Assembly: GCA_012522505.1 (NCBI GenBank)
Contig: JAAYKJ010000025.1
Span: 1 to 52,471, forward strand
Length of the DNA: 52,471 nt
Direction of reading: 5' to 3'
Origin: Clostridiaceae bacterium
GTDB lineage: Bacteria; Bacillota; Clostridia; DSM-8532
The translations under genes and the position numbers were made by a program. Shown here in pieces: positions 16,638 to 21,480 of the stretch. The notes beneath the pieces were generated by a model, which was not told the DNA's origin, did not search any database, and saw only the letters and a list, made by a program, of their open reading frames with translations. Within the stretch, counting starts at the first letter, position 1. Every line of letters begins with the position of its first letter.

Positions 16638-16722
16638 GCGAGTGTGCTGGAATTGGCAGACAGGCACGGTTGAGGGCCGTGTGTCGTATGGCGTATGGGT
16701 TCAAGTCCCATCACTCGCACCA
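16638..16722 (+). tRNA. tRNA-Leu (anticodon GAG)
   Basis: A class II tRNA with acceptor GCGAGTG/CACTCGC, D arm GCTGGAATTGGCAGACAGGC, anticodon stem-loop CACGGTTGAGGGCCGTG, a long variable arm (TGTCGTATGGCGTAT), T arm GGGTTCAAGTCCC, and encoded ACCA. Confidence 0.96.
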
Positions 16723-16757: not shown

Positions 16758-16863
16758 TCTGAAGTTTTTTGCCTATTTCCATCAGCCCTCTCACTGTCCC
16801 TTACATTTAGGAGAAAAAAATGGTATAATTCTCTTATAACCTTCGAATTTGTTAGGAGGCGTC

Positions 16864-18381
16864 ATGGCAGGCTATCTTGTTGTCATAAAGGGGTATGACA
16901 AGGATAATAAATTGGTTTTAAATAACCCCTGCTCTTATTGTATTGGCAGAGGCGGAACTGACAGAAAAGTTGATTTTAAGGTAGATCCCTGTGAATACCT
17001 AACATCCCGTCAGCATTTTTTCATAGACTACAAGCCACCCCGATTTTTTATCCGGGACAACAACAGCACCAATGGAACATTGATTCAAAGGGATAATATG
17101 CTGCTTCCAGTTCATAATGAAGAAACAGAACTGTTTGACGGGGACCTCATCATTGCAGGCAACACTGTTTTTAGGCTGGATGTTGCCTTTGAAGTAACCG
17201 ATGATCCTTCCTTTACGTCGCAAGATGTTCAGAACAGCAGTCAAAGTCATCCTGCTCAGAAGGACGCAGAAGACCAGCAAGTTCCCGATGATTTCAAATT
17301 CAATTGTGCGCAGATCGAAGCTGCCACTTCCATTCCTTCGCCCCGATCAGACTATTACTCAGTTGTTGTACCCGAAATTCAGCTTTTTCACAATACAGAT
17401 GTGAAATGTATTACCTGTGGGGATTTCATCTCCGTTGAAATCACACTTTCCGAGCTGCAAGCATACGGTTTTCCAGTATTTATATGTGATAAATGCGCTT
17501 CCTGTTATTCAAACCAACATGATTTGAAAGACCTTAAGGCGTATCATATCCTGAAAGAGCTAAACGAAGACAGCATGGGGCTGGTTTATCTGGCCAGGCA
17601 CAAAGAAAGCGGCATGCTGGCTTCAATAAAAACGATTATACCCGGATTGTCCTCCTCTATCGAAGAGGATATGCAATACCTGAAACATGAAATTGAAGTT
17701 TTACATTCACTGGCACATCCCAATATTGTAAGGCTGTATGAATATCTGGTAATCGCCAACAGAATACACCTCATTTATGAGTATATGCCTGAGGGAAATT
17801 TGGACGACTATCTAAAAAACAACTGGTTTGGCCCCATGGCTTGGAAAGCGGCCTGTCGGTTGGTTTGTGACATTTTATCCGGGCTGCGTTATTGTCATGA
17901 AATGAATATTGTTCATGGGCAGATCAATTCAACAAACATCATGTTCAAAAAGGACAGCCATGGCAATGATGTGGCCAGAATAAGCGATTTTGGTTTAGCA
18001 CAGGTCTACGAAAACACAGGTCTTTCCATGAAAAAGTCAGATTCATGGGAAACAAAACGATACAAAGCTCCAGAGCTTTTCGACAATAACCATCAGTTAC
18101 AGCCACAGGCTGACATTTATTCTGCAGGCGTTGTTCTATATTATCTTCTTACCGGTACTTATCCCTTTGCTGAAGAATCGTACAGAATAAACGGATCTAA
18201 ACCATCAGCAAACACGGGAACGAATGATTCCAAACGAAAACTGTTACCTTTGCTTCAAAGAAACCCTGCAGTGCCATTACTATTGTCTGACACTGTTCAC
18301 AAAGCTCTTTCCGAAAACCCTGAAGAAAGGTTCCAAACCGCATTTGAAATGCATCAGGCAATTGAATGTCTATATGACTAA
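16864..18381 (+). CDS. FHA / zinc-ribbon / Ser-Thr pseudokinase fusion
   Basis: This 505-residue protein has three parts. An N-terminal FHA domain (about 1-108) has the phosphothreonine-reading residues Gly28-Arg29, Ser48, His51 and NNSTNGT (66-72). A linker carries a four-Cys zinc ribbon (Cys182, 185, 208, 211). A kinase fold covers 226-505 with Lys256 (SIKT), Glu276, DFG at 375-377 and APE at 402-404. The catalytic loop reads HGQINSTN (351-358) where active kinases have HRDLKPxN: the catalytic Asp is Gln and the following Lys is Asn. The glycine loop is also poor (NEDSMG). It is therefore probably a pseudokinase scaffold that reads phospho-Thr marks. AGGAGG lies four bases before the ATG. 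The HEAT-repeat gene downstream is a possible partner. Confidence 0.85.
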   Translation: MAGYLVVIKGYDKDNKLVLNNPCSYCIGRGGTDRKVDFKVDPCEYLTSRQHFFIDYKPPRFFIRDNNSTNGTLIQRDNMLLPVHNEETELFDGDLIIAGNTVFRLDVAFEVTDDPSFTSQDVQNSSQSHPAQKDAEDQQVPDDFKFNCAQIEAATSIPSPRSDYYSVVVPEIQLFHNTDVKCITCGDFISVEITLSELQAYGFPVFICDKCASCYSNQHDLKDLKAYHILKELNEDSMGLVYLARHKESGMLASIKTIIPGLSSSIEEDMQYLKHEIEVLHSLAHPNIVRLYEYLVIANRIHLIYEYMPEGNLDDYLKNNWFGPMAWKAACRLVCDILSGLRYCHEMNIVHGQINSTNIMFKKDSHGNDVARISDFGLAQVYENTGLSMKKSDSWETKRYKAPELFDNNHQLQPQADIYSAGVVLYYLLTGTYPFAEESYRINGSKPSANTGTNDSKRKLLPLLQRNPAVPLLLSDTVHKALSENPEERFQTAFEMHQAIECLYD

Positions 18382-18513: not shown

Positions 18514-18864
18514 ATGGGCATTTCTTTAAGTAAGATTGAGAAATGGGAAAAGAAAAAGAAGTCGAAGAAACTCTTGGGAGCTATCAACGATGGCGACACT
18601 GAAGTCCGAATCCGTGCCATACGCGCTTTGGCGGCTGTTCAAGACCCTGAAGTTGTTAATCCTCTATCCAACCTACTACGGGACCCCAGCCCGGACATCC
18701 GTCTTGCCACAGTTGAGTCGCTCGGAATAATCGGTTCAGGAAGAGCTTTGGAATTTGTCCGATTCCTGATGGAAAATGAAGAAGATGAGAGAGTAGTAGA
18801 AGCAGCAAAAAAATCATTTGAAAAGATCAGAGAGAAGGTAAGAGAAGAAGAAGAAAGCGCATAA
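18514..18864 (+). CDS. Small HEAT-repeat protein
   Basis: This 116-residue cytosolic protein has about two to three HEAT/PBS-lyase-type repeats: residues 28-55 (DTEVRIRAIRALAAVQDPE), 57-88 (DPSPDIRLATVESLGIIGS) and a weaker third. It ends in a highly charged Glu/Lys helix. Such repeats mediate protein binding. The gene lies 130 bp after the FHA pseudokinase on the same strand, so they may work together, but that is inference. AGGAGG precedes the ATG and a hairpin follows. Confidence 0.85.
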   Translation: MGISLSKIEKWEKKKKSKKLLGAINDGDTEVRIRAIRALAAVQDPEVVNPLSNLLRDPSPDIRLATVESLGIIGSGRALEFVRFLMENEEDERVVEAAKKSFEKIREKVREEEESA

Positions 18865-19030: not shown

Positions 19031-20158
19031 TTAGTAATTTACCCGGATTAGCCAAAACTTGATGCCCTTATCACTCCATCCAAGGTCCCAGGGAACCATG
19101 AAACGATCAGTATTATGGCAGCTCACTAATGCATATCCTCTTGAGTCTGCTCCCGTAACCACTGAAATATGAGCCACCTTTCCTTTCTTCTCATAAGCAA
19201 TGATATCCCCGGGCAATAATTTATATGAAAGCTTCAAAAGCTTATCATAGGTACCATGGATAATCAGAGAGCCTCTGCCACTATATATCAAATAATCTTT
19301 AAACCCCTGTGCGTTCACCCAGGCACGATTTCCATCCTTTTCATAGTTCCATCCGCTTGTTTTTCGGAATTTTCCGCCTTCATGGAGCACCTGGGATGCA
19401 AAGTTAGCGCAGTCTCCTCCCGATCCGTTATAGTTCTTATATTGTTTGTTGTAAAGAAAAAAATAATCTTCATTATCACTTGCGCCACAGTACAATTTTG
19501 CATATTCCACCGCCCCCAGACGTCGCTCGTTCAGATTTGAAAAGTCTCGTTTTTCCTGTGTCATGATGAAGGCTTTATTATCCTCGGTTTTTATGTTATC
19601 TAGGTTTAACGAATCGGCAAAAGGATCGGTATACCACTCTCTGGTTATAACATAGTCTTCAAGCCCTGCGGAAAGATCCAGTACGTGATAGGTCGCTATT
19701 CTCATAGAATTAAGCACATCCGGTGAATTTTCATACTCGTAGATGTATTCGGTAATGGCGGAGAAATTAACCGTCATTTTTCCGTTTTTTTCTTTCACCC
19801 ACCTGACCTTGAAAAACGTACTGATATCCTTAAAAATAACTCCCTGTTTATCTGCCCAGTTGTGAAGGTATTTTATCTTCTTTACTTCATGCTCATATGC
19901 CCAAATTCCATAGGTTGTTTTCGTATTATACAGCGGTTCAATCATGCTAAAATCTTTTGCCAGCATTGCCTGATTGCGCAGGGTAATAATTTCTTCGACA
20001 ACAGGTGTATATTCTTCTGTAAGCTCACTGTTGACTGGAACCGTTTCCCATGAAAACAGTTCATCCTCATGCCTGGCAAATATCAAAAGCACGCAAAAAA
20101 TGGTCAAAAAAAGAAAGGGGATCAGAATATACCGTCTTAATCGAATAATAATGAACAT
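19031..20158 (-). CDS. Membrane-anchored protein with Amidase_6 (NlpC/P60-like) domain
   Basis: This 375-residue protein has an N-terminal membrane anchor (about 10-28), a 170-residue NTF2-like-looking outer segment, and a C-terminal cysteine-peptidase-like domain. Catalytic features are Cys250 in GGDCANFASQ, His330 in GKVAHISVV, and a polar residue in SCHNTDR (347-352). This is the Amidase_6 signature seen in cell-wall or spore-associated proteins of Clostridia. It probably acts outside the membrane. The substrate is unknown. GGAAGG lies ahead of the ATG. It stands alone between a repeat element and a zinc-ribbon gene. Confidence 0.82.
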   Translation of the reverse strand: MFIIIRLRRYILIPFLFLTIFCVLLIFARHEDELFSWETVPVNSELTEEYTPVVEEIITLRNQAMLAKDFSMIEPLYNTKTTYGIWAYEHEVKKIKYLHNWADKQGVIFKDISTFFKVRWVKEKNGKMTVNFSAITEYIYEYENSPDVLNSMRIATYHVLDLSAGLEDYVITREWYTDPFADSLNLDNIKTEDNKAFIMTQEKRDFSNLNERRLGAVEYAKLYCGASDNEDYFFLYNKQYKNYNGSGGDCANFASQVLHEGGKFRKTSGWNYEKDGNRAWVNAQGFKDYLIYSGRGSLIIHGTYDKLLKLSYKLLPGDIIAYEKKGKVAHISVVTGADSRGYALVSCHNTDRFMVPWDLGWSDKGIKFWLIRVNY

Positions 20159-20835: not shown

Positions 20836-21480
20836 ATGTTCAAAAAAGCAAACCTGATATTGTTTCTATTCCTGACCATGATGATTTTAACCGCGTGCCC
20901 GGGTAAAAAAGAACAGGAAGTACCCTATAATGCTATGGAGAACGAACCAAACAACGTACAGAATACACCCATGCAATTACCAACGGTAACTGTGACACCT
21001 ACACCTAAAGCAAAAGAAAAAGACTCAAACGAAATCAGCAGCTATGCAACAGAGATTTTGAATAAGGATGAAAACCGTGTAAAAAATATTAAAATTGCAG
21101 CCGATGAACTGAATCATACCGTCCTGGAGCCGGGAGAGGTTTTTTCCTTTAACAGTGCGTTAGGAAAAAGAACCGATGATAAGGGTTACGAAGAAGCACC
21201 GATCCTGAAAGGAAACGGTCAAAAGGGCAAGGGTATCGGAGGAGGAATCTGTCAGATATCAAGCACAATGTATAATGCAGCACTGAAATCGGATATGGAA
21301 ATAATCGAGCGTCATAGGCACTCTGAACCTGTCCCCTATGTTCCTGAAGGTAAGGATGCTACGGTCGTTTATAACAGTAAGGATTTACGTTTTAAGAACA
21401 CAAAGGATTACCCTGTTGAAATTCTGGTATCCGTATCAGAAGATGAGGTAACTGTCAGGTTTTTAAAAAAGATAGACTGA
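20836..21480 (+). CDS. VanW-like lipoprotein
   Basis: This 214-residue protein has a lipoprotein signal peptide with lipobox LTAC (Cys21), a Pro/Thr-rich linker (about 45-60), and a VanW domain covering 70-214. The VanW signature EPGEVFSFN, then GGGICQISSTMYNAAL and ERH.HS, is clear. VanW was first seen with vancomycin genes, but most copies, as here, lie outside resistance clusters, and their role on the cell surface is unresolved. GAGGTGATG precedes the ATG. Confidence 0.88.
   Translation: MFKKANLILFLFLTMMILTACPGKKEQEVPYNAMENEPNNVQNTPMQLPTVTVTPTPKAKEKDSNEISSYATEILNKDENRVKNIKIAADELNHTVLEPGEVFSFNSALGKRTDDKGYEEAPILKGNGQKGKGIGGGICQISSTMYNAALKSDMEIIERHRHSEPVPYVPEGKDATVVYNSKDLRFKNTKDYPVEILVSVSEDEVTVRFLKKID

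Follow-up and report, generated by a model that had tools for sequence, protein, structure and literature searches.

An FHA protein with a putative zinc ribbon and a predicted pseudokinase domain from one clostridial genus

The window analyzed here is a whole stretch of 52,471 nucleotides, contig JAAYKJ010000025.1, from a draft genome of 3.29 Mb (G000) of a Clostridiaceae bacterium. A gene on the forward strand of this window (16864-18381) translates to 505 amino acids and a stop codon, and the product contains an FHA domain, a CxxC…CxxC ribbon and a Hanks-type kinase domain; the assignment was made from the translation, Pfam and an alignment of orthologues. The ATG at 16864 is preceded on the same strand by a ribosome-binding site read directly from the DNA (AGGAGG, 16854-16859, 4-base spacing). 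A promoter-like site, CTTACA-18-TATAAT with TG ahead of the second hexamer, was found at 16800-16829 of the forward strand as a match to the consensus only (10/12). The tRNA-Leu (GAG) gene lies further upstream (16638-16722, forward strand), and a gene for a HEAT-repeat protein of 116 amino acids lies downstream (18514-18864, forward strand). The following genes encode an Amidase_6 protein (19031-20158) and a VanW-like lipoprotein (20836-21480), and this pair is kept together in several genera of the family. The GC and GC3 contents of the kinase gene resembled those of its neighbours and were uninformative on a recent foreign origin.

The FHA domain (residues 25-97; 16936-17154, forward strand) matched PF00498 with 40.5 bits against a cut-off of 20.7 (E = 3.7e-10). 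The phosphothreonine-contact residues R29, S48, H51 and N70-G71, the last two within the NSTNG motif at residues 67-71, were invariant in all three orthologues. The protein thus has an FHA domain with a complete set of phosphothreonine-binding residues, and binding itself is predicted. The putative zinc ribbon, C182-x2-C185-x22-C208-x2-C211, is encoded at 17407-17496 of the forward strand, and both of its CxxC pairs were also invariant in the three orthologues. Pfam gave no ribbon match for this segment, and the best match among solved structures was to zinc fingers, at low confidence (E = 0.055). A single-chain AlphaFold2 model made from the 3-row alignment was too poor for use (pLDDT 33.6). 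PknG is a kinase that carries rubredoxin-like CxxC pairs before its kinase domain and is linked to FHA proteins. The window protein is similar to PknG in this FHA connection and in that a Cys4 metal-binding module, putative here, stands just before a soluble kinase domain. However, PknG is active and carries a TPR domain, whereas the ribbon of the window protein has no confident sequence match.

The kinase-like domain (residues 227-491; 17542-18336, forward strand) matched PF00069 with 149 bits against a cut-off of 31.7 (E = 2.2e-43). K256, the αC Glu276, N358, DFG (375-377; 17986-17994, forward strand), APE (402-404), D417 and R489 were all kept. In the catalytic loop (residues 351-358; 17914-17937, forward strand), HGQINSTN replaces HRDIKPxN, with both the catalytic Asp and the catalytic Lys substituted; the Asp of HRD, which gave way to HGQ, was present in 27 of 27 PrkC-type kinases. 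The glycine-rich loop was degraded too, reading LNEDSMG (residues 233-239; 17560-17580, forward strand) versus IGEGSMG, with G234 changed to N and G236 to D, and the Gly of the activation segment at position 396 was lost. These three glycine positions are 93-100% conserved among the 27 PrkC-type kinases, which come from the same family and class. No PASTA repeats were matched by Pfam in the window protein, and the NCBIfam model PknB_PASTA scored 124 bits against a cut-off of 450. A sequence-only reading of the window had described the FHA residues and the four cysteines as intact, Lys256, DFG and APE as kept, and the catalytic loop as HGQINSTN without its Asp and Lys; every one of these residues was found where that reading had placed it, while the degraded glycine loop and the lost Gly of the activation segment had gone unmentioned. 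Judged by its residues, the window protein is a pseudokinase, that is, a kinase-like protein that has lost at least one of the Lys of VAIK, the Asp of HRD and the Asp of DFG. The HRD Asp was lost both here and in the orthologue from genome G001, which had additionally lost the Lys. The pseudokinase call of the earlier reading was therefore backed by the sequence and by an inactive syntenic orthologue in an independent genome.

The FHA–ribbon–kinase architecture was present in all three species of the genus, which consists of Thermoclostridium/Ruminiclostridium-type MAGs; besides the window genome it contains one Thermoclostridium sp. and one Ruminiclostridium sp. MAG (G001 and G002). Only three sequences entered this comparison; the genomes behind them are all drafts, and at least two were assembled from metagenomes. 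The G001 orthologue, which occupies the same locus as the window gene, has REDGMG, EIR (Lys to Arg), HGNIRPEN and DLG; by these motifs it, too, is inactive, and its degradation has gone further than that of the window protein. In contrast, the G002 orthologue, found at a different locus, has a canonical catalytic core (GEGSMG, AIK, HRDIKPSN and DFG). A local mutation or a sequencing error in one draft was ruled out, because the Asp is also missing from the syntenic gene in the independent assembly of G001. The description of the protein as a conserved inactive kinase held for the window species and G001 but not for G002, in which the same architecture comes with a canonical HRD; since this third species keeps a canonical kinase, the loss of catalysis is recent and lies within one genus. 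We also considered an active kinase with a non-standard catalytic loop, in which the nucleotide would be held by Lys256, Glu276, Asn358 and DFG. The nucleotide- and metal-binding residues that remain in the window protein are consistent with it, but the replacement of the catalytic Asp and Lys, the degraded glycine loop and the absence of Asp, Lys and DFG from the syntenic G001 orthologue make it very improbable.

Outside the genus, a profile spanning the FHA domain, the ribbon and the start of the kinase domain detected the full architecture in none of the genomes sampled (33 from the order, 391 from the class and 398 from the phylum). The other matches were to the FHA part alone and, once, to the kinase N-lobe alone. 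Scans with short conserved peptides, which may miss distant forms, found nothing beyond the genus in 84,980 species with one genome per species. A wide conserved family was ruled out, as the full-length profile match was limited to one genus in the order, class and phylum samples. The architecture is a young variant of familiar parts with a narrow range, and because its distribution is one genus, it founds no new family.

A tree was computed from the FHA–ribbon–kinases, 27 kinases from relatives and two other kinases of the window genome. The window protein and the G001 protein were grouped with support of 100/96, and of 98/92 when the glycine loop, the catalytic loop and the APE region were left out. 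The alternative topology, in which the window protein pairs with the G002 protein, gave a p-AU of 0.041. The window and G001 proteins also had the derived changes G236D, G310E and R352G in common. A single catalytic loss in the common ancestor of the window and G001 copies fits these data best, because the tree groups both inactive copies even without the trait columns; with branches this long, the support is good but not final. At the same time, contig ends interrupt the corresponding site in G002: one contig stops near DUF624 on the side of tRNA-Leu, and another stops shortly before reaching the amidase side, so a second, inactive copy may be present at that site in G002.

The reading frames of both inactive copies were intact (505 codons in the window and 529 in G001). 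The codon comparison gave pS values of 0.70-0.91, saturated or nearly so, in all regions, while the kinase and FHA domains had pN values of 0.33 and 0.17 between the window and G001, with amino acid identities of 46% and 74%, respectively. Pairwise dN of the kinase domain among the three orthologues was 0.437, 0.382 and 0.515, from which branch lengths of about 0.15 for the window, 0.29 for G001 and 0.23 for G002 were derived. The frames are intact and dN stands at about 0.4 where silent sites are saturated, which indicates that the protein is under selection. The inactive window branch was shorter than the canonical G002 branch, which argues for continued constraint and against decay, by a margin that is not large, as the tree gives the window protein an end branch of 0.60 and G002 one of 0.48. 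These values bear on the possibility that the gene is on its way out, a drifting dead kinase whose FHA domain would be at most a phosphothreonine-binding decoy. The fast divergence of the kinase domain between the inactive copies, the further loss of Lys and DFG in G001 and the narrow distribution all speak for decay. However, both species retain full-length frames although silent sites are saturated, the window protein keeps all seven of the kinase elements from K256 to R489 listed above, and its kinase branch does not exceed the canonical one in length; we regard decay as unlikely. Because identity between the inactive copies is only 46%, any interface on the kinase domain is not strongly constrained, and because G001 lost the Lys and DFG, nucleotide binding is not common to both.

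The gene order around the kinase was also compared. In both the window genome and G001, the kinase gene is flanked by asd-dapA-dapB-DUF624-tRNA-Leu(GAG) on one side and by Amidase_6-VanW on the other. In G001, TetR-like and glycosyltransferase-like genes, named from reading their sequences, separate the tRNA from the kinase gene. In the genomes G010 and G019, which belong to another genus of the same family, the tRNA-Leu, HEAT, amidase and VanW genes occur together without a kinase gene, and the HEAT gene stands between the tRNA-Leu and amidase genes. The kinase gene was therefore most likely inserted beside tRNA-Leu, adjoining a pre-existing HEAT gene. The tRNA-Leu(GAG)/DUF624 site varies in content, with the kinase gene in the window genome, the TetR-like, glycosyltransferase-like and kinase genes in G001, and neither in G010 or G019, and it may be an insertion hotspot. 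The earlier reading had named the product of the downstream HEAT gene, 132 bp away, as the likely partner of the FHA pseudokinase, and the two genes do lie on the same strand with no terminator-like site found between them. However, the co-occurrence check failed in both directions. The HEAT gene was not found in G001 or G002, whereas in genomes of the groups g3, g5 and g6 it was present with 55-60% identity and no FHA–ribbon–kinase was found. Together with the kinase-free locus of G010 and G019, this left the partnership unsupported and led to its rejection; the HEAT-repeat protein is probably not a functional partner, and a pairing of the two is hardly credible.

The window protein was compared with known systems. 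FHA-linked bacterial Ser/Thr kinases have been described from cyanobacteria and Chloroflexus (Krupa and Srinivasan, 2005; PMC1262709). Like them, the window protein combines the FHA GR, SxxH and NG motifs with a Hanks-type kinase domain in one chain; unlike them, it is of clostridial lineage, with no catalytic Asp and with a Cys4 ribbon separating the two domains (PMC1262709). Pseudokinases have now been classed into families (PMC12599244). In MviN/FhaA of Mycobacterium tuberculosis, a pseudokinase and an FHA domain likewise occur in a module fed by a PASTA kinase, there PknB, but each domain sits on a protein of its own, and it is the pseudokinase that becomes phosphorylated (PMC12599244). 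All three motifs are lost in MviN (ActPs3), which has VALT and neither HRD nor DFG, whereas the window protein keeps Lys and DFG (PMC12599244). Membership of the ActPs3/MviN family was rejected on these two motifs and because the chain carries no MurJ-type transporter domain. EssB/YukC of type VII secretion is, as is proposed here, a Firmicute pseudokinase with a scaffold role, but it is a membrane protein with all motifs degraded and has neither an FHA domain nor a ribbon (PMC12599244, PMC9600267). The loop HGVMNTDN of the AMPylator SelO is superficially like HGQINSTN (PMC12599244). However, the window protein has Thr-Asn where SelO has an Asp-Asn pair, it gave no match to the SelO family in Pfam, and the G001 loop HGNIRPEN does not have the likeness, which is therefore probably due to chance. 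That Lys256, Glu276, Asn358 and DFG were kept for nucleotide binding and a different transfer, such as SelO-like AMPylation, on FHA-bound phosphoproteins is extremely improbable. No description of an FHA–ribbon–pseudokinase chain was found in the open-licence literature, which is weak evidence.

The data point to a lineage-specific FHA pseudokinase that lost catalysis in the ancestor of two species and would now act as a PrkC-fed, phosphothreonine-dependent adaptor or competitor, a reading to which we assign a probability of about 0.55. The FHA domain would bind phosphothreonine produced in trans, with the PASTA kinase PrkC as the most likely source; the window genome encodes a PASTA-type, PrkC-type kinase next to a PP2C phosphatase gene (G000:C168, named from sequence reading). 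The ligand could be carried by a partner, or by the protein's own linker or activation segment, where several Ser/Thr residues are candidate phosphosites. Binding of an FHA protein to its own phosphorylated tail has precedents in OdhI and GarA. The kinase-like domain is probably a docking part and not an enzyme, and together with the ribbon it would offer a surface for docking or oligomerisation. A phosphorylation-dependent scaffold is plausible on these features, and an adaptor or competitor would be its most likely role. Alternatively, by analogy with eukaryotic pseudokinases, the protein might allosterically regulate an active kinase, either PrkC or the genome's second kinase. The window genome has three kinase genes, two of them with a canonical catalytic loop, which speaks for such a role, but the pseudokinase gene has no genetic linkage to either, and the role appears distinctly unlikely. 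The canonical, inactive and more degraded copies of the three species form a small natural series on the question of what purpose a bacterial kinase domain serves once its catalysis has been lost.

Several other gene arrangements were also observed. In G002, the canonical FHA–ribbon–kinase gene adjoins a gene for a protein of about 900 amino acids (G002:C11, L033:2046-4829), which has a transmembrane-like stretch followed by a C-terminal extracellular solute-binding domain. Another G002 cluster (G002:C425, L091) contains Hsp70-like, zinc-ribbon TPR-like and ClpB-like ATPase genes and a divergent kinase match, and is possibly a chaperone–kinase module. In the window genome, the second canonical-type kinase (G000:C82, L034:6212-7654; YRDLKPSN) has a C-terminal half that looks ParA-like. 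Its gene sits in a cluster with CpaF/TadA-like ATPases, these and the ParA-like half being named from sequence reading, and the kinase might regulate a pilus or secretion machinery of the Tad type.
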